64,000 bases of DNA from a virus, in the IMG/VR virus record IMGVR_UViG_3300014501_000002, positions 1-64,000 of that record; one strand, given 5' to 3'. The position numbers and the translations under genes were made by a program. Positions 5,448 to 46,668 of the stretch are shown piece after piece; position 1 is the first letter of the stretch, and every line of letters starts with the position of its first letter. Under the pieces are notes generated by a model. The model was not told where the DNA came from. It made no database searches and was given only the letters and a program-made list of their open reading frames with translations.

Positions 5448-6599
5448 ATGCCGTTAAATCAAACGAAAGCGACTGTGGCTGATTGGGGGCGTCTGCGTCT
5501 TAATCCCACGTCACCTTTGTCCCTGCTCAGCTTGTACAACCCCCTGAAGCTCGACCTGTTGCAAGTGGTCGACGAGGGCGGCGACATGTTGCTCAACGTG
5601 ACCTACAAGGGCGTTGTGCAGCTTCTGCCAAACAACCAGACTCCATCCGGCGGCGGCTCCTCATTTGTTACCGGTAAGTTGGGTTTGGCTGGGAACTATG
5701 AACTGTTAGCTGCGGCCGGAATTTCGAACACCGGTAACACGGTGGTCACCGGCGGAAATGTTGGGTCATTCCCCACTCCGTCGATCACAGGCTTCCCTCC
5801 CGGGATCGTTACACCTCCTTTCACGGTCGACAATACCGACGCTGCCGCGGCTCAGTCTGCTGCCCTTGTCGCGTACAACTATTTCACAGGCTTGACATTC
5901 ACGTCATTGAGTGGTTCTTCGGCCAATCTGAGCGTCCTTGGAAACGGATCGACTGCATCGACTTATCTTCCGGGAAACTATTCGTCTGGTTCTAGCATGG
6001 ATATTCCTACGAGCATTACTTTGGATGCTCAAGGAAATCCAAACGCGATGTTCGTGTTCATGGCCGGATCATCGACGATCACTCTTGAGAGCGGAGCATC
6101 TATCCTACTTGTCAATGGTGCACAAGCAGCCAACGTGGTGTGGTTGCCGGGTAGCTCTTTCACATCAGTTTACAACGGCATTTCTTCAGTCATGCAGGGT
6201 AACATTCTCGCGAACACGAGTATCACGCTCGGTGGCGGCGTACTGAATGGTCGTGCGCTCGCAGGCATCGTTACTTCAAGTGGCGCAATTACTATCGCAG
6301 CGGCTGTACTGGCTACTTCGCCAGGCGGCGGTGGCGGTACACCTGTCACCGGTGGATTCTATTCTAGCCAGTGCTTGTTCGGAAAGTACTACACTCGGGT
6401 TGCTGCTACGACCGTGCCACCTCTGACGGCCGCCGCAATATTCGCGGATGTGTTCAGCCAGAATAACCAGCACTACGATATCTTCGATATCATCGGGCAG
6501 GGAGATTCTCCGATTTATCACTTGGACTACTTGGGCGTCGCATATTATGACTCTCCATCGCTTACGTACCAAACTGCGGAAGGTTCGACAAACGTTTAA
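5448..6599 (+). CDS. Virion protein with ice-binding-like DUF3494 domain, 383 aa
   Basis: Residues of about 75-290 carry the hallmarks of DUF3494, the ice-binding/antifreeze adhesin fold. They include an opening NYELLAAAGISNTGNT, ADAAAAQ-like helix (TDAAAAQSAALVAYNYF), LDAQGNPNAMFVFMAGSS, LVNGAQAANVVWLPGSS and INGRALAG-like NGRALAGIV. The flanking N-terminal 65 and C-terminal 75 residues are unrelated to it, so the domain looks inserted into a phage protein. It starts after AGGAGATACAAAG and is followed closely by tRNA-Met. Its neighbours are fibre-like genes, which suggests a surface adhesin or decoration. In bacteria this fold binds ice or acts as an adhesin; ice binding here is not shown. 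Confidence 0.8.
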   Translation: MPLNQTKATVADWGRLRLNPTSPLSLLSLYNPLKLDLLQVVDEGGDMLLNVTYKGVVQLLPNNQTPSGGGSSFVTGKLGLAGNYELLAAAGISNTGNTVVTGGNVGSFPTPSITGFPPGIVTPPFTVDNTDAAAAQSAALVAYNYFTGLTFTSLSGSSANLSVLGNGSTASTYLPGNYSSGSSMDIPTSITLDAQGNPNAMFVFMAGSSTITLESGASILLVNGAQAANVVWLPGSSFTSVYNGISSVMQGNILANTSITLGGGVLNGRALAGIVTSSGAITIAAAVLATSPGGGGGTPVTGGFYSSQCLFGKYYTRVAATTVPPLTAAAIFADVFSQNNQHYDIFDIIGQGDSPIYHLDYLGVAYYDSPSLTYQTAEGSTNV

Positions 6600-6605
6600 C
6601 TCGGT

Positions 6606-6681
6606 TGCGGGGTAGTGCAGCGGTAGCATACCTGCCTCATAAGCACGGTGGTCGTTGGTTCGAATCCAACTCCCGCAACCA
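6606..6681 (+). tRNA. tRNA-Met (CAT) with encoded CCA
   Basis: Acceptor TGCGGGG pairs with TCCCGCA. The T-arm is GTTGG-TTCGAAT-CCAAC, followed by A and CCA. The anticodon loop CTCATAA gives CAT, on a stem with one mismatch. Elongator, initiator and lysidine-modified Ile identity cannot be separated by eye; the first acceptor pair is a normal T-A, not the mismatch of bacterial initiators. Confidence 0.92.
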
Positions 6682-8147: not shown

Positions 8148-8909
8148 ATGACAGACTTGTCGCGCGTCACCATAGGTATAAAAACCTTTTTACGCGATGC
8201 GCAACTGTTCAACACTATCGCAGCGATCCGGCAGAGCATGCCGGAGGTGCGCATGATAATCGCGGACGACGGTGAGATGTCTGAAGAGAAGAGGGAAGTT
8301 TATAAGTCCCGAACAGGTTTGATGCACATTTTTCTCCTGCCGTTCGATAGCGGGTTCGGTGCGAAAAGTAACATCATCGCTGGTTGCTGTGGTACCCCGT
8401 ATCTTTTAATTGGGTCAGATGATTTCGATTTTTCTCCAGCACCGGTTCGAGAGGGCATCGAGCGTCTGACTGAAGTATTGGATCATACGCCGCGGCTTAG
8501 TATCGTCAGCGGTCGAGTGAGTAACCGGCCGTACGAGTTCGCTTTGGCTGATGAGGGACATCGAGTTCAGGAGTTCCCCATTGAATATAGCGAAGGTATG
8601 CCTTACTGTCCGTGTGACTTGACGGTGAACTATTCCTTGATTCGGCAAGAAGTATTCCAGAAAGTTAGTTGGGATGACGATGTTAAGATCGGTGGCGGCG
8701 AACACGGCGCATTTTTTGTAGATTGCAAACGCGCGGGTTTCGAAGTAGCGTATGTCCCTGGAGTAAGCATTTCTGAGCAACGAGTTCCTAGCAGTGCGCG
8801 TTACCGGCAGTTTCGCGCGAGAGCTAACAGCCCGGAGCGCCCATGTTTTGATAAGCGCGGCATTACAGAATACATCCTAGGAGATGGCAGAACGGATTAC
8901 AAGAAATGA
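8148..8909 (+). CDS. Family 2-like glycosyltransferase, 253 aa
   Basis: It shows the GT-A pattern: a beta-strand start (RVTIGIKTFLRD), IIADDGE near residue 41, GAKSNI near 70, and a metal/nucleotide site GSDDFDF near 88. The GAK.N and DDF combination resembles family 2 hexosaminyl- or galactosaminyltransferases. The gene opens the sugar cassette and overlaps the next start by four bases (ATGA). Donor and acceptor cannot be told. Confidence 0.8.
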   Translation: MTDLSRVTIGIKTFLRDAQLFNTIAAIRQSMPEVRMIIADDGEMSEEKREVYKSRTGLMHIFLLPFDSGFGAKSNIIAGCCGTPYLLIGSDDFDFSPAPVREGIERLTEVLDHTPRLSIVSGRVSNRPYEFALADEGHRVQEFPIEYSEGMPYCPCDLTVNYSLIRQEVFQKVSWDDDVKIGGGEHGAFFVDCKRAGFEVAYVPGVSISEQRVPSSARYRQFRARANSPERPCFDKRGITEYILGDGRTDYKK

Positions 8910-9574
8910 ACGTCTTGCTTGCTGTCAAGTCATGTCAGCGCGATTTAGATCATGGATGCCACGACATTATTCGCAGCACGTGGGGTAAGGACGTGCACGA
9001 AGCGAACCTTCGGTTCTTCGTCGGTGCCCTCCAGGAGTCAGAGAAGATATCACAAGGCGACGTTTTCTTAAATGTCCCAGATGATTACGACTCCCTGCCT
9101 TTTAAAACGCGTGAGATCTTACGCTGGTCGCTGGTACATAATTACGATTACACTTTTTTGTGCGATACAGATACATTCATTATTCCGAGATTGCTGATGC
9201 GGTGCGGTTTTGAGAAGTACGACATCGCCGCGCGATTTGGTACGATACACCCAGTTGGCGGTCCGATGTTCGACTATACGGACGGCAGAGGCTACCAAGG
9301 GCAGGTTCATCCGTGGCCGAGCGGAGGTTTAGGATACTTCGTATCAAAGAAGGCCGCAGAAATTATTGTGGCCGCTGAAATCAAAGTTTGGGCCGAGGAT
9401 ATGCATGTAGGCCAAGTCTTAGGCGAGCATATTCGAAAAGGCGTGATTTTAGCGCTTGACATTCCCGACTATGAATGCAATACTAGCTGGCACTGGCCCA
9501 GACGGGCTACGGGAAAGGCATACGACCACACGAGCGGATGGATGGAGCGTATGCAGAAAGAACACGGACAATGA
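8906..9574 (+). CDS. GT31-like (beta-1,3-galactosyltransferase-type) protein, 222 aa
   Basis: Family 31 landmarks are visible in order: IIRSTWG at residues 21-27, a DTDTF metal site near 86, PSGGLGYFVSKKAAE near 137 and AEDMHVGQVL near 160, equivalent to the family EDV motif. The length is that of a bare catalytic domain without the membrane anchor of animal enzymes. Animal members transfer Gal or GlcNAc in beta-1,3 linkage; substrate here is unknown. It is coupled by ATGA overlaps to the genes on both sides. Confidence 0.75.
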   Translation: MNVLLAVKSCQRDLDHGCHDIIRSTWGKDVHEANLRFFVGALQESEKISQGDVFLNVPDDYDSLPFKTREILRWSLVHNYDYTFLCDTDTFIIPRLLMRCGFEKYDIAARFGTIHPVGGPMFDYTDGRGYQGQVHPWPSGGLGYFVSKKAAEIIVAAEIKVWAEDMHVGQVLGEHIRKGVILALDIPDYECNTSWHWPRRATGKAYDHTSGWMERMQKEHGQ

Positions 9575-10029
9575 GCGTAATTAAATTCAACCTGAAAACA
9601 GTAGAGGGAAGACGGGCATACAACAGGGCGAAGTATATTGCTAATAGAAAGAGGCATAGCGCCCAGATGAAGCTTTGGAGAAAGCGCAATTTTAAAAAAG
9701 TTAAGGTACTCGCAAATAGTTATTACGCAAATAATACAGCCCAGATTCGTCTTCGCATGAGATTGAGAAATGCTAAAAATAAAGCGGAAGTTTTAAGCCA
9801 TTATGGACCGGGTGGGAAACTTCAATGTTCTTGGGATAAATGTAAAGTAGTCGATCCAGATATGCTATCTTTAGATCATATCAAAAATGATGGGGCGGAA
9901 TCTAGACGATCTGGAGAATCTGTCAACGCTTATGGTTATGTAAGAAAACATAATTACCCTTCGGGATATCAAACCCTGTGCCACAACCACCAGTGGAAGA
10001 AGGAATTAATTCGCCGGAGAGCCATGTGA
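9571..10029 (+). CDS. HNH-type endonuclease, probably homing, 152 aa
   Basis: I chose the ATG overlapping the previous stop (ATGA). A basic N-terminal half is followed by a Cys pair (CSWDKC), DMLSLDHIKNDG and YPSGYQTLCHNHQWKK. This is the HNH layout seen in free-standing phage endonucleases, in which LSLDHI supplies the catalytic His. The second zinc knuckle is LCHNH instead of LC.NC. The gene is clearly richer in A+T than the glycosyltransferase genes around it, a sign of insertion. Confidence 0.75.
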   Translation: MSVIKFNLKTVEGRRAYNRAKYIANRKRHSAQMKLWRKRNFKKVKVLANSYYANNTAQIRLRMRLRNAKNKAEVLSHYGPGGKLQCSWDKCKVVDPDMLSLDHIKNDGAESRRSGESVNAYGYVRKHNYPSGYQTLCHNHQWKKELIRRRAM

Positions 10030-10868
10030 ACGCAATACTCTTAATCGCGACTGGCTCGATGTATTGGGGTTTTGCGAAAAACCTGATAGTGTCTGCTAGG
10101 CAATATTTCATTCCGCATGATGTGATTTTATTTACAGACAGTCCAGAGCGGTTCGATGTCGCGCACAAGATCGTTATACCTAGTGCCGGATACCCGGAGG
10201 CAACATTAAAACGGTACCACACGTTTCTAGACCAGCGGAGTATTCTAGATCGATACGAAACATTATGGTACGTAGACGCAGATATGAAATTCGTCTACCC
10301 AGTTACGGAAGCGGACGTACTGTCCGATGGGATCACGGCAACGCTCCATCCCGGCTTCGCGGTGGATAGAATACATCCGACCGTCGGCTTTGTAAGCAAA
10401 GTCGGTACTCCGGAGAGACGGAGAGAGTGTACAGCGTTCATTCCGGAGACCGCACAGAGTCTGTATTTCTGCGGCGGATTTAACGGTGGTCGCGCAGAGA
10501 GTTATTTGTGCATGGCCGAGAAGATTCGAGAAAATATTGACATCGATGCAGCGGGCGGCATCATCGCTCACTGGCATGATGAGTCTCACCTGAACCGATA
10601 TCTGTATGACAATCCACCGGCTAGAATTTTGTCGCCGTCGTTTTGTTATCCTGAAGGATACGATGGTGGGTACGGTTGGCCTATAAATGGGCATCGTCCA
10701 ATTCTCCTAGCGCTGAATAAGCCGGGCCATTATGAACCGTCACATTATGTGCCGGAGCCGCTTGTAGCAGTTCAACCGACTCCCGCAATGCCAGCGCGTC
10801 GAGGCGTGGTTCCCGGATCGAAGTCTCGTATACGCTCGGCAATGCAGAAAGGAAACAGATGGTCGTAA
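10026..10868 (+). CDS. GT6 (ABO blood-group family) glycosyltransferase, 280 aa
   Basis: I chose GTG at 10026, which overlaps the preceding stop. Family 6 signatures are strong: WYVDADM with a D84-A85-D86 metal site, FCGGFNGGRAE near 148-158, and AHWHDESHLNRYL at about 181-193 followed by RILSPSFCYPE. WHDESHLN is the signature of the ABO, alpha-1,3-Gal and Forssman transferases. Animal enzymes add Gal or GalNAc in alpha-1,3 linkage, often to fucosylated H antigen. The C-terminal 45 residues are Pro/Arg-rich and extra to the fold. The next gene, a fucosyltransferase, would make the H-type acceptor. Confidence 0.88.
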   Translation: MNAILLIATGSMYWGFAKNLIVSARQYFIPHDVILFTDSPERFDVAHKIVIPSAGYPEATLKRYHTFLDQRSILDRYETLWYVDADMKFVYPVTEADVLSDGITATLHPGFAVDRIHPTVGFVSKVGTPERRRECTAFIPETAQSLYFCGGFNGGRAESYLCMAEKIRENIDIDAAGGIIAHWHDESHLNRYLYDNPPARILSPSFCYPEGYDGGYGWPINGHRPILLALNKPGHYEPSHYVPEPLVAVQPTPAMPARRGVVPGSKSRIRSAMQKGNRWS

Positions 10869-11635
10869 TTAAACTTCTCGGCGGGTTGGGCAATCAGTTG
10901 TTCCAACGCGCGTACGGATTCGCGTTGCATCATCGCGGTTATAATGTCGCGTTCGATAAGTCGGCGTTAATAGAAGGGACACATCGCGAATATTCACTCG
11001 GCGCCTTTAACATGGATGTTTCATTCTCCGAACCAGTCGGGCCGATTGTTTATGAGTCGGGTCTTCAGTTTAACTGGCAGAACCTTCATCCCGCGGACCC
11101 GAGCACAATCGTGGGGTACTTTCAGACTGAGAAGTATTTCCAAGATATCGCGAATTTAATACGAGTGGAATTCACGTTGACCGGTGAGCCTTCTGAACAC
11201 GCGCAAGACTTACGAAGACAGATCAATAATTGCAACAGCATATTTCTTCACGTGCGTCGTCAAGATTACGTTGGCCTACAGCACTTCCATGGTATGCCAG
11301 ATATGGCATATTATAAAGAGGCGCTCGCGCTGATTCAGTCGTATTACGTGGACTCTAAAGTGTTCGTGTTCTCCGACGATCGCGAATGGTGTCTACAGAA
11401 CTTCATGGGGTACGACGTCGTTCAAGGTACAAGCAAGTATGAAGATTTGTGGCTCATGGCTCAGTGTCAACATGCGGTCATTGCGAATTCATCGTTCTCA
11501 TGGTGGGGTGCCTGGCTTGGCGATTGGGGTGATAGCAAATCGCGTCGCATAGTCGTCGCACCGAAACAATGGTTTAATCCGGCAGCAAATGTGGACGCGT
11601 CAGACATCGTCCCGGAAAGATGGCTCAGAATATGA
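10859..11635 (+). CDS. GT11 alpha-1,2-fucosyltransferase, 258 aa
   Basis: It has the family 11 start GGLGNQLFQ at residues 8-16, the donor-binding HVRRQDY near 130 and the C-terminal NSSFSWWGAWL near 210. These enzymes transfer L-fucose from GDP-fucose to galactose in alpha-1,2 linkage. Length is near that of bacterial FutC/WbsJ-type members, slightly short. The start overlaps the GT6 gene by ten bases. GDP-fucose would come from Gmd and the synthase domain encoded in the same cassette. Confidence 0.9.
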   Translation: MVVIKLLGGLGNQLFQRAYGFALHHRGYNVAFDKSALIEGTHREYSLGAFNMDVSFSEPVGPIVYESGLQFNWQNLHPADPSTIVGYFQTEKYFQDIANLIRVEFTLTGEPSEHAQDLRRQINNCNSIFLHVRRQDYVGLQHFHGMPDMAYYKEALALIQSYYVDSKVFVFSDDREWCLQNFMGYDVVQGTSKYEDLWLMAQCQHAVIANSSFSWWGAWLGDWGDSKSRRIVVAPKQWFNPAANVDASDIVPERWLRI

Positions 11636-13197
11636 TCGTCCAAGCATTCGTTCCAAATTGGCCCGGCCCGAAGCAACACGCTAAGGAAGTCGCCGCGATC
11701 ATCGCGCCGCACTGCCCGGTCACAATTCTGGACGACCCGAACGATTACTTTAACGCGCAGTGGGAGAAGGCCCGCGCACAGTTCACGGGAGATATCTTGT
11801 TGTGGGTTATGGCGGATGTGAAACCTCCGCTCGATTTTGGCGCCATGTTCGAGGAAGGCGTACGCTTAATGTCTCGCGCTCCCGTGGGTTGGTATGCCCC
11901 GGACGTTGCCTGGACAAGCTATATTTATGACCCGCAGAATCTATCTCGGGTCGAGGAACATATCTACGAAGTTCCGAATACAGATTCGTTGTGTTTCATG
12001 ATTCGTAAAGATGTGATTGACAACATGCCACACCTCGATCCTGCCACGTGTTTCATGTGGGGTATGGATTTGACGGCGATCGGCACCGCGCGTCTGATGG
12101 GTTTAAAAGTTGTTCGCGACTATCGGTTCAAGGCGCAGCATCCAAACCAGACGGGTTACGAGATTGAGAAGGCGGGACGCGGCATGATCCCTATGTTTAA
12201 GACGTACCCGATTGCGTTGCAGCGGGAGATTGGTAAGCTTGAAATCGAGACGCGTCGGTTACGCAAGCCGTTTTGGAAAGACAAGCGAATCACAGTCACC
12301 GGCGGCAATGGCTTCCTAGGGAACCACGTCGTCGCAGCGCTGCATAGCAAAGGTGCAGAAGTATCGGTTCCGCATCTCGTAGAGTATGACTTACGAAACC
12401 GTGCAGATGTGGATCGCATGTATCAGAATTTTCGCCCGACTATCGTCATTAACTTAGCCGCGGCTGTTGGTGGACTCGGCGCGAACATCGCGAGTCCGGG
12501 TCGTTTCTTTTACGACAATCTTATGATGGGCATGCATCTCATGGATGCGGGCTGTCAATTCGGTATAGACAAGTTTGTGCAGATGGGCAGCGCGTGTGAG
12601 TATCCGAAAGACGCGCCGGTTCCATTGGTAGAGGAAGATGTTTGGAACGGGTACCCCGAGCCCAGCAACGCTCCGTACGGCATCGCTAAGCGCGCGCTGT
12701 TGACCATGGGGGACGCCTACAGAACACAGTACGGCATGAATGTAATACACATTCTCTCGACCAATCTTTACGGGCCGGGAGACAACTTCAATCTTGAAAC
12801 GTCGCATGTTATTTCCGCGCTGATAAACAAGTGTGTCACGGCGAGAGACGCGGGCTCCCCAAGCATTTCGATATGGGGCACTGGCGCTGCCACGCGCGAC
12901 TTCTTGTTTGTGCGGGACGCGGCATCAGGAATAGTTCTTTCGACAGAGTTATGGAATAATCCGGCGCCGGTCAATTTAGGTTCCGGTAGGGAAGTATCGA
13001 TACTCGAGATTGCAGAGAAGATAAAACAGCTGACCGGTTTTCAAGGCGCGCTGTCATGGGACCACTCGAAACCAGACGGGCAGCCGCGCAGATTTCTCGA
13101 CACGAGTCGAGCGTTATCGTTTGGATTCGTATCCGGTACGCCCCTAGAAGCTGGGCTGAAAGAAACTATTTCGTGTTTCGAAGAAAAATTGCGATGA
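11632..13197 (+). CDS. Fusion: glycosyltransferase-like domain + GDP-L-fucose synthase, 521 aa
   Basis: I chose ATG at 11632 because it overlaps the fucosyltransferase stop (ATGA); an in-frame ATG lies four codons upstream. Residues 1-215 look like a GT-A domain (CPVTILDDPNDYF, LLWVMADVKPP). From about 220 an SDR domain begins: GGNGFLG at 224-230, AAAVGGLGANI, and catalytic Y349-G-I-A-K353, with NLYGPGDNF and an LGSG...SI tail. The SDR part matches GDP-L-fucose synthase (Fcl/WcaG), which epimerises and reduces GDP-4-keto-6-deoxymannose. Given the ColD-like neighbour, a ColC-like role making GDP-colitose is the alternative. Confidence 0.85.
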   Translation: MIVQAFVPNWPGPKQHAKEVAAIIAPHCPVTILDDPNDYFNAQWEKARAQFTGDILLWVMADVKPPLDFGAMFEEGVRLMSRAPVGWYAPDVAWTSYIYDPQNLSRVEEHIYEVPNTDSLCFMIRKDVIDNMPHLDPATCFMWGMDLTAIGTARLMGLKVVRDYRFKAQHPNQTGYEIEKAGRGMIPMFKTYPIALQREIGKLEIETRRLRKPFWKDKRITVTGGNGFLGNHVVAALHSKGAEVSVPHLVEYDLRNRADVDRMYQNFRPTIVINLAAAVGGLGANIASPGRFFYDNLMMGMHLMDAGCQFGIDKFVQMGSACEYPKDAPVPLVEEDVWNGYPEPSNAPYGIAKRALLTMGDAYRTQYGMNVIHILSTNLYGPGDNFNLETSHVISALINKCVTARDAGSPSISIWGTGAATRDFLFVRDAASGIVLSTELWNNPAPVNLGSGREVSILEIAEKIKQLTGFQGALSWDHSKPDGQPRRFLDTSRALSFGFVSGTPLEAGLKETISCFEEKLR

Positions 13198-13724
13198 AAA
13201 ACTTCTATGTGTATCTCTGGCTTAGAGAAGACAACACTCCTTATTACGTGGGTAAGGGTAGTGGGAATAGGGCTTACATTAGACATCGCGTTGGGCGATG
13301 CCCAGAAGGCCGAGTATTAATTCGGGATTGTTTTAGCGAGAAAGAAGCGTTTGAGATGGAGAAGTTTTTAATCGAGCTTTACGGTAGGAAGGATTTAGGA
13401 ACGGGCTGCCTTAGAAATTATTCATCAGGAGGCATCGGCGGATCGGCAAACCCGTCAGAAGAAGTCCGTTATAAGATGGGCGCGGCTAGAAGAGGGGTTG
13501 CGCCGTCCGCATCAACTCGTCGTAAGATAAGTTGTGCTAATGCGGGAAGGAAACATCCACATAAGTCTCATCCAGTTTCACAAGAAACCCGCAGTAAAAT
13601 AAGTAAGTATAGAAAGGGTCGCGAAAATTCTTACGCAACGCGAATTAAAATGAGCGACGCTAAAAAAGGTAAGCCGTGGTCGGAAGCAAGGTGGCGGGCT
13701 GAGCGTGAAAGGTTATCCCAATGA
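13194..13724 (+). CDS. GIY-YIG endonuclease with NUMOD3-type tail, 176 aa
   Basis: I chose ATG at 13194, overlapping the previous stop. YVYLWLREDNTPYYVGKG at residues 5-22 is the GIY-YIG core. R.Y...R and an E in the EMEKFLIE helix follow. The C-terminal half has repeats of the type SEEVRYKMGAA and ETRSKISKYRKG, which are DNA-binding NUMOD3 motifs. It is more AT-rich than its neighbours and interrupts the sugar cassette. A free-standing homing endonuclease is most likely. Confidence 0.85.
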   Translation: MKNFYVYLWLREDNTPYYVGKGSGNRAYIRHRVGRCPEGRVLIRDCFSEKEAFEMEKFLIELYGRKDLGTGCLRNYSSGGIGGSANPSEEVRYKMGAARRGVAPSASTRRKISCANAGRKHPHKSHPVSQETRSKISKYRKGRENSYATRIKMSDAKKGKPWSEARWRAERERLSQ

Positions 13725-14905
13725 GAAAAATCACGTTGGGACATTTGGACATTTCGGAGCGTGGTAAGGCCTACGTCAACGACGCCCTGGACCACAACCG
13801 ATTGTCGCGAGGCCCGTATACGGATAGATTCGAGAGCGAGTTTTCTCGGCTGCACGGATGCAAGCACGGTCTGTTTATGAACAGCGGCACGTCGGCGCTT
13901 CAAGTAGCGCTGGTCGCGTTGAAAGAAGTTCACGGTTACGCGGACGGAGACGAAGTTATCGTCCCGGCCACGACATTCATTGCGACAAGTAACATCGTGA
14001 TCCAGAACAACCTTACGCCGGTGTTCGTAGATGTCGACCCGTTTACGTTCAACATCGACCCTAGAAAGATCGAAGAGAAGCTTACATCGAAGACGCGGTG
14101 CATTATCCCGGTTCATTTGTTCGGGTTGCCCGCGGAGATGAAGTGGATTAGAGATATAGCAAAGCATCGGGGCCTTCAGATTATTGAGGATTCCTGTGAG
14201 ACTATGTTCGCTACTTTAGACGGACAGTCAGTCGGAAGTTTTGGGGACATCGGCTGCTTTAGTACATATGTGGCCCATTTAATTGTGGGCGGTGTGGGCG
14301 GACTCGTTACGACCAATGACCCTAAACTGAACGAGATTTGCAAGAGCCTGATGCAGCACGGTCGGGATAGCATTTATACGAACATAGACCAGGACGACAA
14401 CGCGGACGACGCACTGCTTAAACAGATGATCGAGCGCCGCTACTCGTTCGAGCGTGTAGGATACTCTTACCGTGCGACGGAACTCGAAGCCGCAGTCGCT
14501 CTGAGCGAACTCGAACGCTGGGAAGAGAATATTGGGCGCCGCAGGTTTTCCGCCGCCCGCCTGACGGACTTATTAAAAGATTTGAGCGGTGTACTGCAGC
14601 TGCCAGTAACGCCAGTTGGGTTCGAACACTCTTACATGATGTTCCCAATGGTGTTCTACGAAGGCTACGAGCGCAATCCATTTTTATGGTATCTTGAGAA
14701 GAACGGTATTGAGACTCGTTACCTGTTCCCGTTGCTGACGCAGCCGGTGTACAGGACGTTGTTCCCTGGACAAGCGGAGAAGTATCCCATAGCGCAGTAC
14801 CTCGCTGAGCACGGATTTTTTATCGGCATGCATCAGGGACTCTTAACAGAAGATATTGAATACATCTCAGAAGTAATCCACGACTATTTCAAAAAGAGTA
14901 AATAA
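13721..14905 (+). CDS. ColD-like PLP sugar 3-dehydrase (DegT/DnrJ/EryC1 fold), 394 aa
   Basis: It has the fold type I pattern of the DegT family (NSGTSALQVAL near 47, PATTFIATSN, IEDSCE near 161). The active-site Lys is replaced: the stretch CFSTYVAHLIVGGVGG puts His186 where aminotransferases have Lys. The same exchange defines GDP-4-keto-6-deoxymannose 3-dehydrase (ColD, His188), which removes the C3 hydroxyl using PLP and glutamate. I therefore predict a 3-deoxysugar enzyme rather than an aminotransferase. Its substrate would be the product of Gmd encoded downstream. It overlaps the genes on both sides by a few bases. Confidence 0.82.
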   Translation: MRKITLGHLDISERGKAYVNDALDHNRLSRGPYTDRFESEFSRLHGCKHGLFMNSGTSALQVALVALKEVHGYADGDEVIVPATTFIATSNIVIQNNLTPVFVDVDPFTFNIDPRKIEEKLTSKTRCIIPVHLFGLPAEMKWIRDIAKHRGLQIIEDSCETMFATLDGQSVGSFGDIGCFSTYVAHLIVGGVGGLVTTNDPKLNEICKSLMQHGRDSIYTNIDQDDNADDALLKQMIERRYSFERVGYSYRATELEAAVALSELERWEENIGRRRFSAARLTDLLKDLSGVLQLPVTPVGFEHSYMMFPMVFYEGYERNPFLWYLEKNGIETRYLFPLLTQPVYRTLFPGQAEKYPIAQYLAEHGFFIGMHQGLLTEDIEYISEVIHDYFKKSK

Positions 14906-15777
14906 TGGCTAAGGTGTCAGTTATCGTACCCCTCTACAATCAAGCCAAGTTCGTCACGCAGACATTGGATAGTATCATGGCGCAGACGTACGAAGACTTC
15001 GAAGTGATTGTGGTGAACGACGCCAGTACGGATGATAGTTTATCCGTTGTCACTGAGTACGCGAAGAACTTCCAGAAGATAAAGATTGTCAACAATCCTG
15101 TCAACCGTGGATTACCCGCCACACGAAATATCGCTATAAGTCATTCGGTAGGGGATTTCATACTTCCATTGGATTCAGATGACCGGATCGATCCGGACTT
15201 TCTGCAGAAGACGACGGCGCGGATGGTCGACGGAGTCGCGATAGTCGGAACGTGGATGCACATCGAGCCCGATGATATCACTCGACGTAACTCGCATGAG
15301 GTTCAGCAGGCCGGTGCATTCGGGTCGTGCTATCCAATCTACGCGCCCACGCGTGAGCAGATTCTAACCGGCAATAGTTTGGCTATATGCTCTTTGATTC
15401 GCCGCGAAGCCCTCGACCAGGCGGGCCAGTATCCAGAAGATTTTAAGAATGGTTCCGAGGATTGGTGTTTGTGGTGCTCGATCATATGCAGCGGTAGATG
15501 GAGAGTAGTGGTGGTTCCGGAGTATCTGTTTCATTATAGAGTCCATCCGGATTCTATGTGCCGGTCATCCACGATGGCCCCGTTCCCGGTGACACGAGCC
15601 CGCATCAGAACTAAGTTTGGTTGGACGGTTGAAGAGGCCGCGCGAGAGCAAGAGCGGTTGAATCCGAAGCCTATCCCGCCGCCCCCGCAGCCACCTCCCG
15701 GAATTTATCGAGTGAGTGATAGAGAACGTTTTCGAGCCCAACTCAAGGCGTACAAAGAGAAATACAATGTCCAATGA
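14905..15777 (+). CDS. Family 2 glycosyltransferase, 290 aa
   Basis: This is a classical GT2 catalytic domain: VSVIVPLYNQAKF at the start, VVNDASTDDS near 36-46, NRGLPATRN near 70 and the metal site DSDDR near 91. A GNSLAICSLIRREAL segment and EDWCLW acceptor helix follow, as in many LPS and teichoic-acid transferases. The C-terminus is Pro-rich (PKPIPPPPQPPP). It overlaps the dehydrase gene by one base. Specificity unknown. Confidence 0.88.
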   Translation: MAKVSVIVPLYNQAKFVTQTLDSIMAQTYEDFEVIVVNDASTDDSLSVVTEYAKNFQKIKIVNNPVNRGLPATRNIAISHSVGDFILPLDSDDRIDPDFLQKTTARMVDGVAIVGTWMHIEPDDITRRNSHEVQQAGAFGSCYPIYAPTREQILTGNSLAICSLIRREALDQAGQYPEDFKNGSEDWCLWCSIICSGRWRVVVVPEYLFHYRVHPDSMCRSSTMAPFPVTRARIRTKFGWTVEEAAREQERLNPKPIPPPPQPPPGIYRVSDRERFRAQLKAYKEKYNVQ

Positions 15778-16486
15778 TGTCGTTCAAGGATTATGGATCG
15801 GCGGCGATCTATCAAACATGGAGCGGTTGTCCATTAACTCATTTTTACAGAACGGACACGAGTACCATCTTTATATATACGATGAATTAGGGCACATTCC
15901 TGACGGCGTAATTGTTAAGGACGCCAACGAAATTATAGACGGGAAGGATATCTTCCTAGTTCGCGGAGGGTATTCAAGCTTCTCGGATTTCTTTCGTTGG
16001 AAGTTGGTGCTAGATCGTGGCAACTGGTGGGTGGACACGGATGCTGTGTGTTTACGGCCGTTGGATTTCATATCAGATCATGTGTTCATCGGTGGAAAAG
16101 GTTTGCCCGGCTCGGATGATTGTATCACGAGCGGGTTGTTTAAAGCGCCCGCGCAGTCAGAGATTATGAAGTGGGGTTGGGAACAGTGTCAGAAAATGAA
16201 TCCACTGACGATGGCGTGGGGCCAAGCTGGCCCGCCGCTGTTTACCGAGGCCGTGCACAAGTTCGGTTTGTCAGTTGGAGCCACCGTCGTTCCGGGTAGC
16301 TTATTCTTCCCGGTGTTTTACACGAAGGCGCCCGGCGCATTCATCGGTCCGAATACATCAGATGATTATGGCAACGCGTATTCCGTGCATCTGTTCAATG
16401 AAATTTGGCGCTTGGCTGGGACCGACAAGAATGCGGTCTACCCAAATACGTCCGCGTACGAAAAACTAAAGAAGAGGTTCCAATGA
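15767..16486 (+). CDS. GT32-like (DXD sugar-binding) glycosyltransferase, 239 aa
   Basis: I chose ATG at 15767, eleven bases inside the previous gene, rather than an earlier in-frame ATG. VVQGLWIGGDLS at the start, FSDFFRWKLVLDRGNWWVDTD near 75-92 with a DTD metal site, and WGQAGPPLFTEAV are features of the Gly_transf_sug/GT32 group. That group includes alpha-1,4-galactosyl-, GalNAc- and mannosyltransferases. It belongs to the overlapping sugar operon. Confidence 0.75.
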   Translation: MSNDVVQGLWIGGDLSNMERLSINSFLQNGHEYHLYIYDELGHIPDGVIVKDANEIIDGKDIFLVRGGYSSFSDFFRWKLVLDRGNWWVDTDAVCLRPLDFISDHVFIGGKGLPGSDDCITSGLFKAPAQSEIMKWGWEQCQKMNPLTMAWGQAGPPLFTEAVHKFGLSVGATVVPGSLFFPVFYTKAPGAFIGPNTSDDYGNAYSVHLFNEIWRLAGTDKNAVYPNTSAYEKLKKRFQ

Positions 16487-17157
16487 TCGGAACGCTTTAT
16501 AGATACGCGCATCCTTACGATTCAGCCCAATTTCTTTATTGTGGGCAGGGGTCAGATAGAGATAGGCATCATCGTTCTGGACACAGTTCATTTGGGCGAC
16601 GTTTTAAAGAGAAATTTCCCGATATAGAATTACCAGAACCTATAAGAGAACAAATCGAGGTTTCTTCTCCGATAGATTTAAACGAGGAAGAAACAATTTG
16701 GATTTTTCGATATCATACGTGGTGGCGGTATCCAAATGGAATGAATATAACTTTACCTGGTTCGGTCGACTATAAAAGTCAGGGTCTTATTACCGGTCGT
16801 CTAAATGCTAAAAATGGGCGTATGCAGAGAATTTCTACTCCGGAAACCTGTGCTAAAGGCGGTCGAATCGGCGGTCGCAGAAGAATAGAATTGCACGGCA
16901 ACCCACTGACGCCTGAGAGTTGTGCGAAAGGCGGTCGCATAACAGGCCGCATAAATGGGCGTAGGGCTTTTGAGAATAACACAGGAATATTCGCTTTAGA
17001 TTTCGATATAAACGCAGCTAGATGTAAAGCTGGACGCAAGAATTTCGAGAGTGGACACATGAAAAATCTCGGGAATTCAGGAATAGGTCTCTGTTTTCGA
17101 TGGAATATTAAACGTGGGAAACCTTGTGTTTGCGGTAAACACGGGAGAAAGGCGTAA
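16483..17157 (+). CDS. GIY-YIG-like homing endonuclease, 224 aa
   Basis: I chose ATG at 16483 (ATGA overlap). The N-terminus (GTLYRYAHPYDSAQFLYCGQ) is a divergent GIY-YIG core in which the usual YVG becomes YCG. GSDRDRHHRSGH follows. The second half has three NUMOD-like repeats (ETCAKGGRIGGR and ESCAKGGRITGR). A Cys pair (CVCGKHG) ends the protein. It is strongly AT-rich compared with the upstream glycosyltransferase gene, and this low G+C continues about 370 bp into the next gene. Confidence 0.72.
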   Translation: MIGTLYRYAHPYDSAQFLYCGQGSDRDRHHRSGHSSFGRRFKEKFPDIELPEPIREQIEVSSPIDLNEEETIWIFRYHTWWRYPNGMNITLPGSVDYKSQGLITGRLNAKNGRMQRISTPETCAKGGRIGGRRRIELHGNPLTPESCAKGGRITGRINGRRAFENNTGIFALDFDINAARCKAGRKNFESGHMKNLGNSGIGLCFRWNIKRGKPCVCGKHGRKA

Positions 17158-17160
17158 GAA

Positions 17161-18126
17161 ATGAAAGCTTTGGTAACTGGTTGTACGGGCCAGGACGGAT
17201 CTTATTTAGCGGAACTATTACTAGAAAAGGGTTATGAAGTTCATGGATTGGTGCGGAGACATAGTTCTGTTAGTACGGATCGTATTGATCATATTTTTAG
17301 CAAACTACATCTACATTATGGTGACCTTTCTGATTCCGGATCGCTAAATAAAATACTCCATGAAATACGTCCGGATGAGATTTATTCTCTTGGCGCACAA
17401 TCGCACGTTAGAGTATCGTTTGAGTGCCCAGAATATACGTCTGATGTGGACGCTTTAGGTGTTTTACGTTTGTTAGAAGCGATGCAGTTAAATTGCCCGG
17501 AAGCGAGATTTTATCAAGCATCGTCAAGTGAGATGTTTGGCGCAGCCCCAGCACCACAAACGGAGACCACGCCATTTTATCCGCGAAGCCCATACGGCAT
17601 CGCCAAGCAGTTCGCTTATTGGACCACAGTCAACTACCGTGAGGCATACGGTATGTTCGCGTGTAACGGGATATTATTCAACCACGAGAGTCCGCGCCGC
17701 GGCGAGACGTTTGTTACTCGGAAGATAACCAAAGCCGCCGTACGCATAAAAGCGGGATTGCAGGATAGTTTAGCGCTGGGTAATCTAGACGCTAAGAGAG
17801 ATTGGGGATTCGCCGGGGATTATGTTGAAGCGATGTGGCTCATGATGCAGCAACCGGTGCCCGATGATTTTGTCATAGCGACCGGCGCCACACATTCAGT
17901 TCGAGAATTCCTAGATGAAACATTTGGGTACCTAGGCATGGATTGGAAGCCGTATGTAAAGATCGACCCGAAGTATTTCCGTCCCGCAGAAGTCGATTTA
18001 TTGCAGGGCGATGCTAGCAAGGCGCGGCGTGTTCTAGGCTGGGAGCCGAAAGTAAATTTCAAACAATTGGTTAGGCTGATGGTCGACCATGAGACAGAAG
18101 GCAGTCGTTTGCATCCCCACGTTTAA
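17161..18126 (+). CDS. gmd: GDP-mannose 4,6-dehydratase, 321 aa
   Basis: Diagnostic Gmd stretches include [15 protein letters not shown] at residues 6-20 (NADP site), [27 protein letters not shown], the catalytic Y145-G-I-A-K149, [17 protein letters not shown] and [17 protein letters not shown]. The enzyme converts GDP-mannose to GDP-4-keto-6-deoxymannose, the branch point to GDP-fucose or GDP-colitose. It is slightly shorter than the 345-370 residues of bacterial enzymes. The first 370 bp are about 40 percent G+C, the rest about 55 percent, with a sharp change near 17530. Confidence 0.93.
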
Positions 18127-18847
18127 CCGCCCGGAATTCCTCGCTCTCGCACTCGAAAAGATTGCGCGGGCATCCGATGTTCCGGAAGATATCCGGATAT
18201 TTCTGGACACCTGTTCTGACGCACGGCTCGATGAAGTAGAATACGTCCGTGATACGTATATGCCCACAGCAGATATATTTCGCGCGCGTCTTCATGTCAT
18301 TGCCCCGAGCGGTACATGGAACATCTTGAATTCCTTGAAACAGGGATTTGAGACCGGCGCAGAGTTCGTCTTTTTTATCGAAGAAGACGTTATGATAAAG
18401 CCAGAATTCTTTAATGAGCATCTGAGGATGCAGTCCGAAGGAGACTACTTCGTGACTTGCGGTCGTAAGTTGCGAAACCGCGACGACAGTTACTATAGCA
18501 ATCCCGGCACCTGTTACCGAAGCGATAAGCTGTCTCTTGTTGTTCCACATATCAACATGAAGTATTTCGCGGACCAAGCGGGGTATCTTGAACGCCAGTT
18601 TCCGCATATGGACGACGCAGGCATTATGGATGACGGCCTGATTCGTCGCGTCATGCAGTCCATCGGCGCCCGAGCGAAGTGTGCGGTACCAGCTATAGCA
18701 GCACACCAAGGGTTCCATTATTTTGCGAAGTTCGCGCAGTATCAGACAGTTGGATCGATTGCAGAACGGATAGAGCAACTTCGCGTTATGCTAGCGAAGG
18801 TCGACCCAACCGATCGGTACACTCGAGACTTCGAAACACTTTTGTAG
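18089..18847 (+). CDS. Glycosyltransferase (GT-A type), 252 aa
   Basis: The product starts [20 protein letters not shown], a GT2 opening. [15 protein letters not shown] near 95-109 supplies an E-E-D metal site in place of DXD, as in GT-A enzymes of the GNT-I type. DDGLIRRV near 175 resembles a catalytic-base region. Its start lies 38 bases inside gmd in another frame. It is the last gene of the sugar cassette. Confidence 0.72.
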
Positions 18848-18970
18848 AAACATGTGAGTGATAGCACGTTCAAATCTACTCATATGGACTTAGACTAAAA
18901 TCTGAGTCTTTCATTAAAGCATCCATGCCGGGTGATCCTCGTCACTGGGTGTTAATAGGAAATAGAAACC

Positions 18971-19579
18971 ATGGCACAAGTAATCACGAATTATAGCATC
19001 AACGGCGCAACTCCGTCTACCGTCGGTGGAACCGGAATTCTGCCCAAGGCATTCCCGAACCTCCCCGGCCCTTCGATCGGGGTTAACCGTACGACTCCTT
19101 CTTTCCTGAATGCGACCACTCTTTCGAGTGCAGTCGGGCAGCTTGAAGTTCCCGGCTCAAACCGGTTGAACGGACAGGTGTTCCACATTCTGGCTTCTGG
19201 AAACTACGAAGTCGGCGTCGGCGGCGCGTGCCCGAGCTTCTCTCTCGCTCTGTTCGCGAACACTGGAACTCGGACGGCCCCAATCACTACGAAGATCGTT
19301 GCTCCTGCGGCTTTTACCGCGCAGAACCTCGACGCGGTGTTTTATCCTTGGTACATTGACGTCCTGTTGTACGGCGAAACTTTGTCCGGGACAGTGACGG
19401 GTTCTTACACCGGTCAAGTTGACGGCGTAGCTTTCTCGAAGACGACCCTGGATGTTAACCTCGCCGGTGTCAACTTCTCCAACGTCGAACCTGCTTTCGG
19501 TTTGGTGTTGGCGGTCACGTTCAGCGTTAGCGAGCCTGGAAACAGCGCAAACGCGTACGCGTTTCAAGTCGTAGCATAA
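18971..19579 (+). CDS. Virion decoration/fibre-like protein, 202 aa
   Basis: The product is beta-rich, almost free of Cys, with high Gly, Thr, Ser and Val, typical of phage surface proteins. GSNRLNGQVFHILASGNYEVG near residue 60-80 parallels GSLNGKIYKVKADG in the 330-residue protein encoded at 7145-8137, suggesting a shared domain. AATAGGAAATAGAAACC precedes the ATG. Codon choice is regular and strong, as in highly expressed structural genes. Function is inferred from composition and neighbours. Confidence 0.65.
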   Translation: MAQVITNYSINGATPSTVGGTGILPKAFPNLPGPSIGVNRTTPSFLNATTLSSAVGQLEVPGSNRLNGQVFHILASGNYEVGVGGACPSFSLALFANTGTRTAPITTKIVAPAAFTAQNLDAVFYPWYIDVLLYGETLSGTVTGSYTGQVDGVAFSKTTLDVNLAGVNFSNVEPAFGLVLAVTFSVSEPGNSANAYAFQVVA

Positions 19580-19592
19580 CCATTCAAGCCGC

Positions 19593-19614
19593 GGGAGGCC
19601 CGATTCGGCCTCCC
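19593..19614 (+). terminator. Strong hairpin after virion gene
   Basis: A perfect 8-bp stem GGGAGGCC/GGCCTCCC has a six-base loop 14 bp after the stop. It is not followed by a T-run, so it may be a Rho-dependent end, an RNA-stability element or a processing site rather than a classical terminator. Confidence 0.5.
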
Positions 19615-19629
19615 AAAGCTTACACGACC

Positions 19630-20028
19630 ATGATCGCGGTATCTCAGTTCTGGCACGAATTCAATTTCTACGGCAAGACAATTGGTACTGCGTTCACGTT
19701 CCTGTCGGTGCTAACATATTTGTATAAGAAGTTGGTTTCTCCAGTGGTTAAGAAGGTAGTGAACATTAATGACACCGTGTCATCACTAGCGTTGAATCAT
19801 TTCCCGCATTTACAAAATGCTCTTGCGTCACAAGAAATTCAACTCAAAGAAATTAAGACCAGTGTTGTAGAGTACGGAGCACGTTTAGAAAATACGAATA
19901 AGGCAGTCGAGACTCTGCATCAGTCGTTCACAAACCATATTGAGAACGAGTCAAGGAAGAAACGAAATGCCATTCGAGTCAACCGCGCAACAAGGGTACA
20001 TGCACGCGCACCCCGAGATTCTCGGTAA
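19630..20028 (+). CDS. Membrane-anchored coiled-coil protein, 132 aa
   Basis: Residues 16-30 (TIGTAFTFLSVLTYLYKK) form a membrane span. A long helix with coiled-coil character follows up to about residue 110, and the tail is very basic. The last 60 bases overlap the next gene in another frame. The design (short N-terminus, span, coiled coil) resembles small phage membrane proteins of holin or spanin-like type, but no signature proves it. Confidence 0.6.
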   Translation: MIAVSQFWHEFNFYGKTIGTAFTFLSVLTYLYKKLVSPVVKKVVNINDTVSSLALNHFPHLQNALASQEIQLKEIKTSVVEYGARLENTNKAVETLHQSFTNHIENESRKKRNAIRVNRATRVHARAPRDSR

Positions 20029-20152
20029 GAAAGGTTTGCACGAGTGGGATGAGGCGACCAAAGGTCATTACTCCAGTCTGCCCACGCATGTGAAACATGA
20101 GCATTCGAACGCGCCCTATAAGGTCGCGCGCGATGCGAGGAAGAAAGAGTAG
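19967..20152 (+). CDS. Small phage protein of the YMHA type, 61 aa
   Basis: ATG at 19967 follows CAAGGAAG. The opening MPFESTAQQGYMHAHPEILG matches a widespread small phage protein pattern (F.S.AQ..YMHA.HP.IA..W) found near packaging genes. Its function has not been described to my knowledge. The next gene begins two bases after its stop. Confidence 0.65.
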   Translation: MPFESTAQQGYMHAHPEILGKKGLHEWDEATKGHYSSLPTHVKHEHSNAPYKVARDARKKE

Positions 20153-20154
20153 TC

Positions 20155-20475
20155 ATGGCCGAAATGAAAAGTTGGTTGAAGAAGATCGGCCTGCTCAAGA
20201 AACTGCTCGCAGAGACCGGCCCACTTTGGCCTGACAGCACGAAGCTAGCAGGGTACGCCGAGAGCGGCCCATATCATTGTGGAGATTGTGAGTACTTGAA
20301 GGGTAAGACAAAAGGTGAAATTTTTAAAGACGAGAACGGAAAGGGTCGCTGCAACCAGTCGGTTATGATCGCGGATATTGAGACCTTGAAAGATAAAGAC
20401 GGTCTCCCGATCGTGAATATTGAAAAGGGATGTTGTGAGTTCGTAGAACCGCCGTCCCAAAAGTTGGAGAAGTAG
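20155..20475 (+). CDS. Cys-rich phage protein, 106 aa
   Basis: Four or five conserved-looking Cys occur as YHCGDCEYL, GRCNQSV and GCCEFVEP. This is a metal- or Fe-S-binding-like arrangement similar to small phage proteins resembling high-potential iron-sulfur proteins. The N-terminal 25 residues form an amphipathic basic helix. It is closely spaced with genes on both sides. The role is unknown. Confidence 0.65.
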   Translation: MAEMKSWLKKIGLLKKLLAETGPLWPDSTKLAGYAESGPYHCGDCEYLKGKTKGEIFKDENGKGRCNQSVMIADIETLKDKDGLPIVNIEKGCCEFVEPPSQKLEK

Positions 20476-20477
20476 TC

Positions 20478-21098
20478 ATGAAAATAGTCGCGTATTTCGT
20501 CAGACATGGCGACACGGACATGAATGATGACAATGTGTTCCGGGGCGACCTGGACATCGGCATCAATAAAGATGGGCAGGAACAAGCCAAGGAGTTAGTT
20601 CCATATTTTAAAGGACGCAAGTTTAGCGCTGCGTTCAACAGCACTCGGAAGAGGACGAAGCAGACTCTGGCCCCTCTCCTAAGTTCGAAAGGCATGGATT
20701 CCGTCACTTCCGACAGATTAGATTCGTTGGATACCGGTGACTTGGCCGGTAAGCCGAAGAGCGACGAGAATCTCGAGATTCTGAAGTATTATCGAAAACA
20801 TCCAGACGAAAAAATTCCCGGTGGGGAAAAGGTTCAAGACTGGAGAAATCGAGTAGACTCTGAACTGCTTGCGATTATTCGAAGGGGAGAAGAAGCTTCA
20901 TCTCCCACGATTGCGGGGATTCACGGGTCGGTGATCAAGGAATTATCTAGGCTCCTGACCGGAGACATGAACAAAGTAGGCGTTGATCCGGGCGGCGTAT
21001 TAGGAGTGTTCAAAACACCCAACGGTTATGTTTTAAGTGCATTGATTAAGCCGAAAGACGGGAAAGGTAACTACGACGACGATCGGCAAGGAAGCTAG
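20478..21098 (+). CDS. Histidine phosphatase family protein, 206 aa
   Basis: The catalytic RHG motif is at residues 9-11 (YFVRHGDTDMN), with a second active-site region FNSTRKRTKQT near 55. A later GIHGSVIK near 155 supplies the second catalytic His. This is the phosphoglycerate-mutase-like (branch 1) fold; members dephosphorylate sugars, nucleotides or proteins. A phage copy beside membrane and packaging genes is uncommon. Substrate unknown. Confidence 0.8.
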   Translation: MKIVAYFVRHGDTDMNDDNVFRGDLDIGINKDGQEQAKELVPYFKGRKFSAAFNSTRKRTKQTLAPLLSSKGMDSVTSDRLDSLDTGDLAGKPKSDENLEILKYYRKHPDEKIPGGEKVQDWRNRVDSELLAIIRRGEEASSPTIAGIHGSVIKELSRLLTGDMNKVGVDPGGVLGVFKTPNGYVLSALIKPKDGKGNYDDDRQGS

Positions 21099-21106
21099 GA
21101 GATATC

Positions 21107-21433
21107 ATGGCAGAAGAAAAGAAAGAACACAAGAAAAAGAAGCATGCAGGCCACGGCTTTAAGTCTACACACATCGAGCATCACGGCGATGGTAGCGCGA
21201 CTGTGCACCATATGCATGCCGATGGACCCGAGCATGATGTCAAGCACGCCGTTAGCGATCTCGACGGAATGCACGATAGCATGCAGGATCACCTTGGTAC
21301 GCCGAACCCCGGAGAAGCCGAAGCTAACGAAGGCTCTGACGCGGCAGCCGCAGGCGCAGCACCGGCAGGCGGGGCTCCCGCAGCAGCAGGCGGGGCTCCC
21401 GCAGCAGCAGGCGCAGCACCGGCAGGGATGTAA
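21107..21433 (+). CDS. His-rich protein with Ala/Gly/Pro repeat tail, 108 aa
   Basis: The N-terminal half is rich in His and Lys (KKKKHAGHGFKSTHIEHHGD) and could bind metal. The C-terminal 35 residues are repeats of APAGGAPAAAGG, encoded by imperfect 15-36 bp DNA repeats (about 21350-21432) that may vary in number. AGGAGATATC precedes the start. Function unknown. Confidence 0.65.
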   Translation: MAEEKKEHKKKKHAGHGFKSTHIEHHGDGSATVHHMHADGPEHDVKHAVSDLDGMHDSMQDHLGTPNPGEAEANEGSDAAAAGAAPAGGAPAAAGGAPAAAGAAPAGM

Positions 21434-21493
21434 ACCCATTGGGTGAGTTCGATTTGTGGTTGGACAAAGTTTATAAATCAAGGAGAAGTGGAC

Positions 21494-21544
21494 ATGGCGA
21501 AGAAGCATAATGTTTCATTATATCGCGCCCTCCACCACCTTTAG
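21494..21544 (+). CDS. 16-codon leader ORF overlapping next gene
   Basis: A very good ribosome-binding site (CAAGGAGAAGTGGAC) serves this ATG, which reads MAKKHNVSLYRALHHL. The main gene starts inside it in another frame. Known relatives of the downstream protein begin with MAK-type residues, so this could be the true N-terminus joined by a frameshift, or a leader peptide. Confidence 0.4.
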   Translation: MAKKHNVSLYRALHHL

Positions 21545-21689
21545 GAAAGGTGGTTTGCATAAGGCGTTAGGTGTTCCCGAAGGCGAGACAATCCCAGCTG
21601 CAAAGATCGCTAAGGCTAAGAGTTCGAAGAATTCGCACGTGGCCCATATGGCGAATTTCGCACACACAATGTCTCACTTCAAGCACTAG
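21510..21689 (+). CDS. Small phage protein of the LHKALGVP type, 59 aa
   Basis: The product contains GGLHKALGVPEGETIPAAKI, the hallmark of a small phage protein found near packaging genes (LH.ALGVP.G..IP..K). The C-terminus is His-rich. The only in-frame ATG (21510) lies within the leader at 21494-21544 and has no ribosome-binding site of its own. Expression therefore probably depends on re-initiation or a frameshift from the leader. Confidence 0.6.
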   Translation: MFHYIAPSTTFRKGGLHKALGVPEGETIPAAKIAKAKSSKNSHVAHMANFAHTMSHFKH

Positions 21690-31241: not shown

Positions 31242-31877
31242 ATGTACGTCTATCTAGCGACAAACAATATCAACGGAAAACAATATGTTGGGCAGCATTC
31301 GGGAAGCGATTTGAGTAAGTATTGGAATCACTGTGTTGCGCATGCTTTACGTGGCAGCCGTGATAAGCCATATTTATACAACGCTGTTCGAAAGCATGGC
31401 CTTAGTAGTTTTCATATAAGTCCGCTTGTCATAGTAGCGACAAAATGGGAGATGGACCTGTACGAGAAAGGAATGATTAAAGCTCTAAATACTCGAAAGC
31501 CAGTCGGATATAATCTTACCGAAGGCGGCGACGGTGTTTTGGGATTAAGGCATTCTGAAGAGTCCAATCAAAAGAATAGAGACGCTCATCTAGGCCGGAA
31601 AGACTCCCCCGAGACCAAAGAGAAGAAAAGGGTCACTAGTTTGGGACGTAGACATACAGAAGAAACTCGGTTGAAAATGTCTCAACACATTAAGTCAGAA
31701 GAACATCGAAAGAAAATCTCAATCGCTAAGATGGGGAATAAGTCGCGGTTAGGGATGAAGAATTCAAAGAAGTCCCGAAGACCTCGATCAACAGAAGTCA
31801 GATTAAAAATGTCTGAGGCGCAGACGCGCCGCAGAGAAAGAGAAAGGCAGGGCAATGGCAATTCAATACAGCACTAG
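31242..31877 (+). CDS. GIY-YIG endonuclease with NUMOD3 repeats, 211 aa
   Basis: MYVYLATNNINGKQYVGQHS at the N-terminus is the GIY-YIG core. YLYNAVRKHG and GYNLTEGGDG near 90 follow the family order. NUMOD3 repeats (HSEESNQKNRDAHLG, SPETKEKK, HTEETRLKMSQH) and a basic tail bind DNA. AAGGGAGGATTCA precedes the ATG. The end overlaps the next structural gene by 23 bases. Location after the intron-riddled capsid gene fits homing into conserved head genes. Confidence 0.85.
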   Translation: MYVYLATNNINGKQYVGQHSGSDLSKYWNHCVAHALRGSRDKPYLYNAVRKHGLSSFHISPLVIVATKWEMDLYEKGMIKALNTRKPVGYNLTEGGDGVLGLRHSEESNQKNRDAHLGRKDSPETKEKKRVTSLGRRHTEETRLKMSQHIKSEEHRKKISIAKMGNKSRLGMKNSKKSRRPRSTEVRLKMSEAQTRRRERERQGNGNSIQH

Positions 31878-34092: not shown

Positions 34093-34104
34093 GGATGGTA
34101 TAGT

Positions 34105-35475: not shown

Positions 35476-35514
35476 TCGGCGCAGTTGTGACAAAATTTTA
35501 GTGAGGATGGTAAC

Positions 35515-45151: not shown

Positions 45152-45164
45152 TAAAATAGGACTT

Positions 45165-46612: not shown

Positions 46613-46668
46613 AAAGAAATAGTAGCATTTCAAAGGTTTGTTTGTCAAGGCTTTTTAGTGAGGCGAGT

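Follow-up and report, generated by a model that had tools for sequence, protein, structure and literature searches.

A mobile DUF3494 domain, with ice as a putative ligand, in virion-type proteins of uncultured tailed phages

Two secreted ice-binding proteins (IBPs) with solved structures, EfcIBP (PDB 6EIO) from a bacterial consortium and AnpIBP (PDB 7BWX) from a fungus, have the same family and fold as the phage domains described here, and residues of a like kind on the b-face. In contrast to these secreted proteins, the phage domain is found inserted within virion-type proteins that have no signal peptide, and ice is its putative ligand. Viral genes of the same Pfam family (PF11999) have been listed among possible host cryoprotection genes (AMGs) in Arctic surface waters, and homologues associated with Synechococcus phage S-SKS1 have been mentioned (PMC11515562); the copies reported here, however, sit inside virion-type proteins. 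In predicted viral protein structures (BFVD), the sole DUF3494 proteins with a significant match were those of Hyperionvirus, a giant virus, and these have no link to tailed-phage virion proteins. The Ig-like domains of tailed-phage virion proteins offer a different comparison. They are likewise movable, occur in sheath, tail, and decoration proteins, and are present or absent among relatives (PMC9230969). Their fold is an Ig sandwich, whereas the phage DUF3494 domain is a beta-helix with a long alpha-helix and a different conserved face, and the two could work alike without sharing a fold. DUF3494 domains and movable virion domains are each known; their combination appears to be new, and the papers searched contained no account of DUF3494 in phage virion proteins.

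The window analyzed here is a stretch of 64,000 nucleotides, bases 1-64000 of a 111,514-base IMG/VR record that holds two DUF3494 domains. Its identity as part of a tailed-phage genome and its relation to cultured phages were read from the following genes.

22671-24557, plus strand: large terminase, which gives the tailed-phage identity
24706-26862, plus strand: portal protein

In a comparison with 50,697 phage records, the terminase had its best E-value against Tunturiibacter phage Tunturi_3 (PP885686), which was also the only record to match a nozzle of the family described below. This podovirus of an Arctic tundra acidobacterium is the nearest cultured relative. It is of similar size (97.6 kb), and its portal, adaptor, and nozzle are related to those of the present phage and lie in the same order. 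However, identity is only about 26-37%, and no DUF3494 domain was found anywhere in the Tunturi_3 genome. The Tunturi_3 homologue of the nozzles is gp19 (18182-21592), which is annotated as a head decoration protein.

The first DUF3494 domain lies in a protein, P1, that a sequence-only reading had described as DUF3494 in its middle but not at its ends.

5448-6599, plus strand: P1, the reported 383-aa protein, a DUF3494 domain flanked by two short ends
5448-5672, plus strand: N-terminal flank of P1, with motif LDLLQVVDEGGDMLLNVTYKGVV and a Ser/Pro/Gly-rich linker, pLDDT mostly below 50
5673-6305, plus strand: DUF3494 domain of P1, residues 76-286 by the phage profile, with a Pfam core at 87-275
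6306-6596, plus strand: C-terminal flank of P1, with motif DIFDIIGQGDSPIYHLDYLGVAYY, related to the N-terminal LDLLQVVDEGGDMLLNVTYKGVV

The P1 ORF is intact, with an aggag ribosome-binding site 5' of the ATG at 5448, a TAA stop, and 383 aa. Residues 87-275 match Pfam Ice_binding (PF11999) with an E-value of 3.1e-33 and 115.6 bits (cut-off 28.7). A PDB sequence search with P1 returned 13 distinct sequences at E-values up to 1, DUF3494 ice-binding proteins only, and the best match spans residues 77-283. Neither end has a match in Pfam or PHROGs, and neither is DUF3494, which bears out the placement of the domain in the middle of the protein. Each end carries one motif of the same type, connected to the domain by a Ser/Pro/Gly-rich linker, and with linkers on both sides and a repeated motif common to the two ends the domain was rightly called inserted. 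The AlphaFold2 model of P1 has residues 72-290 mostly at pLDDT above 90 and most of the flanks below 50. It contains the IBP beta-helix that structure prediction was expected to reveal, with a long helix (residues 132-147) alongside, and all 31 PDB chains found by Foldseek at E <= 1e-3 were DUF3494 IBPs. The TM-score to 7bwx was 0.85 (target length).

Orthologues of P1 with the same layout were found at loci L003 (75%), L004 (72%), L024, and L049. This repetition on separate contigs rules out a one-off fusion or an assembly chimera. At L029, L031-L033, L073, and L077 the domain precedes both flank motifs, as compared to its position between them in P1. No domain-free version of P1 was found by scans with the flank sequences or by a local profile search.

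6606-6681, plus strand: tRNA-Met (cat), immediately 3' of P1
6700-7140, plus strand: fibre-type gene adjoining P1, matching Pfam PF23140 (podophage GP4 fibre I protein gp80) at E 1.1e-21

No virion family was matched by P1 as a whole. The gene neighborhood is kept at L003 and partly at L049, and a gp80-type fibre gene also lies close to P1 at L003/L022 and L049/L050. From the place of P1, 0.1 kb upstream of the GP4 gp80-type fibre gene, and from this conserved synteny, we infer that P1 is a virion protein.

The second domain, which had been overlooked, lies in a gene for a tail nozzle-type protein, P2.

38331-39050, plus strand: neck/tail adaptor-type gene, domain-free here, with relatives at L016/L030 and L028 that carry a DUF3494 insert
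39050-43114, plus strand: P2, a tail nozzle-type protein of 1354 aa, carrying the second DUF3494 domain and assigned by the fold of residues 690-1354
42167-42727, plus strand: DUF3494 insert in P2, residues 1040-1226, between ...DLTVYTDG and QYDAYF...

The P2 domain matches the family profile with an E-value of 1.8e-55 and 188.3 bits (cut-off 28.7). Within the model of residues 690-1354, the insert has a TM-score of 0.88 to 6eio (EfcIBP; 43% identity) and of 0.94 to 7bwy (rmsd 1.1), both by target length. A three-faced beta-helix with a long alpha-helix alongside is thus present in the models of both copies. The remainder of the P2 model, whose confidence is modest (pTM 0.38), matches podophage nozzle or hub proteins, namely P22 gp10, GP4, SU10, VP1, Pa223, and Pan3. 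A search of the PDB by sequence with the nozzle profile gave no match; the relation came from fold comparison. Several independent nozzle structures agree and the gene order of portal, adaptor, and nozzle fits, which suggests that P2 is a podophage tail nozzle. P22 gp10, GP4, SU10, and VP1 share both the fold of the nozzle part and this gene order, but none of the nozzle or hub proteins matched by P2 has a DUF3494 insert.

Related nozzles were aligned to locate the insertions. The domain is present in the nozzles of L009 (N-terminal part 91% identical) and L010 (about 55%), in the latter case about 15 residues before the P2 site, and the inserts of L063, L068, and L078 lie near the place used in L010. 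In the nozzles of L012-L017 the absence is clean, and ...SLSVFTD or its counterpart joins NGTxYDAFF directly. The L018 nozzle has no insert at P2's place and instead carries DUF3494 near its N-terminus (residues 91-295), while the L035 nozzle has it in another loop, ahead of GWYRLNP. The nozzle family therefore uses four DUF3494 insertion sites in total. P2 also contains, at about residues 111-190, a small beta-rich repeat (...VYTGTFPGG..NTYVGMKFTVSGF...), of which one or more units are also found in several unrelated proteins at L032, L033, L035, and L060; to judge by these occurrences, the repeat would be another movable module.

A profile scan of IMG/VR, with a query built from ten phage DUF3494 domains, was performed to assess how widely the domain is spread. 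It gave 235 relatives, the best of which were kept as 79 loci, and at these loci 101 domains were read in 94 proteins whose flanks fall into about 20 groups. In these proteins the domain is an insert in a larger ORF, and nearly all lack a signal peptide. Each matching record holds from one to six copies, typically two. Among 50 domain-bearing proteins, PHROGs matches include tail sheath (E 6.9e-24), head decoration, tail fibre, and minor tail families, and neck adaptors and nozzles are also among the carriers. At L006, L008, L088, L090, and L091, the domain-bearing version adjoins a paralogue without the domain. For the domain in general, the nozzle, neck adaptor, and tail sheath cases lend good support to a virion role. 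One set of proteins, starting MGVPTIGP (L044, L052-L055, L064, and L089), has two DUF3494 domains each, and at L044 and L052 the two copies sit in different parts of the domain tree. In cultured phages, tblastn gave no credible match (best E 3) for any of five DUF3494 queries, which included the EfcIBP sequence; the gp80 and terminase controls gave matches, and the BLAST low-complexity filter may hide some DUF3494.

These data bear on the published reading of viral PF11999 genes in Arctic waters as host cryoprotection genes (PMC11515562), by which the infected cell would produce or export the protein to protect itself from ice. Signal-peptide-like starts at L047 and L083, the only credible ones in a crude scan, agree with it. 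However, the same scan found no such start in P1 or P2, in both of which the domain sits within a larger protein. P2 is the nozzle itself, P1 is located among late, virion-type genes, and at most loci the domain is inserted in virion-type proteins. For the present phage this explanation is very improbable, and a stand-alone secreted AMG is rejected for P1 and P2 by the missing signal peptide and the insertion in larger virion-type proteins. Because the query was made of phage domains, the survey is biased and cannot tell the share of secreted-type genes among viral DUF3494 genes.

The phylogeny of 56 non-redundant domains was compared with the proteins that carry them, and the domain tree is at odds with the grouping by host protein. 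A single clade of nozzle-borne domains was rejected (p-AU 1.8e-43), as was a single clade of domains from P1-type hosts (p-AU 8e-6). The L016 neck-adaptor domain pairs with the L035 nozzle domain. In the case of P1, the closest relative of the domain (84%) lies at L023, in a protein whose flanks are unrelated to those of P1; the N-terminal part of that protein has a relative in the present window.

18971-19579, plus strand: domain-free protein, N-terminal part related to that of the L023 protein

Since the tree contradicts the host proteins, the domain moves. Nozzles have acquired it more than once, and it has probably been exchanged within the P1 chassis. Close relatives have the domain at defined sites or lack it there, and this holds across different virion proteins, as is expected of a movable virion domain.

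Other features of the genome were also noted. The major head protein gene appears to be in three pieces (28526-28807, 29431-29763, and 30502-30852; match to Tunturi_3 gp6), with small homing-endonuclease-like ORFs between them (28889-29347 and 29827-30483). Rfam gave no intron family at the gathering threshold in this region (28526-30852). Many GIY-YIG- or HNH-like homing endonuclease ORFs, recognized by eye, are scattered elsewhere (13056-13724, 16405-17157, 31242-31877, 45144-45740, and 46109-46648). Three adjacent proteins at 33256-36069 (starting at 33256, 34105, and 35515) begin alike, MSGPLNSS.PTTSQI.GGVFN..., and then diverge, and probably consist of a common attachment part with variable ends. 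Between the P1 and fibre genes and the terminase lies a run of about ten sugar genes (8148-18847), named mostly by eye as glycosyltransferases and epimerase/dehydratase- and aminotransferase-like proteins; such genes may enable the phage to make sugars of its own or to attach them.

The ice-binding-site positions of AnpIBP (PMC7277481) were transferred to the phage domains by alignment, with strands 2 and 3 assigned by pattern and not from coordinates. At the outward b-face positions of the 56 phage domains, 59% of residues are T/S, 27% are A/G, and 3.8% are charged or His. Entropy is 1.02 bits at these positions as compared to 1.33 bits at inward positions and 1.45 bits at the others, and the b-face is the most conserved part of the domain. 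On strand 4, the nozzle copy reads SSATIG and AnpIBP reads SSATLG. The b-face is flat, with small, Thr/Ser-rich outward residues. This pattern is what a retained ice-binding face would look like, but it does not prove one; in DUF3494 proteins the ice-binding site follows no consensus motif (PMC7966756), and ice binding therefore cannot be proven from sequence.

The same measurements weigh against a neutral spacer, in which exposed loops tolerate a domain that adds bulk or stability without binding anything. The many unrelated sites and host proteins fit such a spacer, as do the close relatives that manage without the domain. But a face that stays small and Thr/Ser-lined across 56 diverse domains, with an entropy below that of inward positions and of the rest, would not be expected of it, nor would the retention of typically two and up to six copies per record. 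We consider a spacer highly unlikely.

Soil or cell polysaccharide is the main rival ligand to ice. In that case the domain would be a module for general adhesion or carbohydrate binding, also displayed on the virion, with its Thr/Ser face binding cell-surface or soil polysaccharide. The known movable virion domains, the Ig-like domains, are thought to be weak carbohydrate binders (PMC9230969), the DUF3494 family is said to include putative substrate binders and to take part in surface adhesion (PMC12337378), and the phage has its set of sugar-modifying genes at 8148-18847. A receptor face, however, would be expected to vary between hosts, whereas the b-face positions vary least. We consider a carbohydrate-binding module rather unlikely, although less so than a spacer or a host gene. 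Ice is the likeliest ligand of the phage domains at about even odds.

The likely host and habitat were approached through relatives. Tunturi_3 is the nearest cultured relative, and the P1 orthologue at L004 comes from permafrost at Utqiagvik, Alaska (IMG dataset 3300006638), the only contig whose habitat was confirmed in papers; the host is therefore likely to be an acidobacterium of cold soil. The cold origin of both speaks for ice as the ligand, and the lack of the domain in Tunturi_3 speaks against it. A search for hosts through proviruses with the nozzle profile matched a single contig, which belongs to an 'uncultured archaeon' MAG, and no DUF3494 match was found on it. This 99.9 kb contig (L100) is about a whole phage genome of the group and carries a domain-free nozzle at 9989-13138; it is probably a stray phage contig that was misbinned.

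Taken together, the data favor a mobile DUF3494 binding module displayed on the virion, with ice as its likeliest ligand, a reading to which we assign a probability of roughly 0.58. The earlier proposal of a novel phage binding protein stands in part, in that P1 is a phage protein without a signal peptide and has a true DUF3494 insert with a conserved ice-binding face; its scope was too narrow, as the module is mobile and not a one-off. The element is a beta-helix domain of about 205 residues that phages of this group place in loops or between segments of virion proteins, as other phages do with Ig-like domains. The present phage has two copies, the first in P1, which probably belongs to the fibre region, and the second in the tail nozzle, and would display them with the domain facing outward. 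The domain retains the flat, small, Thr/Ser-lined face that is the ice-binding face of its solved relatives. Because the domain retains that face, adhesive docking to ice or another ordered surface is its most likely function. With several such adhesive faces, the particle would dock to these surfaces in frozen soil, and docking would keep it in places where cells are concentrated or protect it from growing ice during freeze-thaw.

Some phage particles may therefore stick to ice or similar surfaces. More tentatively, and at somewhat less than even odds, cold-soil tailed phages have made an antifreeze fold into a movable module, and their particles bind ice through copies in the nozzle, neck, sheath, and fibre region, which would place or protect them at the ice-water boundary. 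If this is true, ice-binding folds would belong to phage particles and not to cells alone, and the viral PF11999 genes listed as host cryoprotection genes would need to be re-read. One purified domain and one cultured phage would then be enough to test how phages survive and position themselves in freezing soils. The DUF3494 domain would then be a second widespread, horizontally exchanged fold, beside the Ig-like domains, to serve as a movable decoration of virions.
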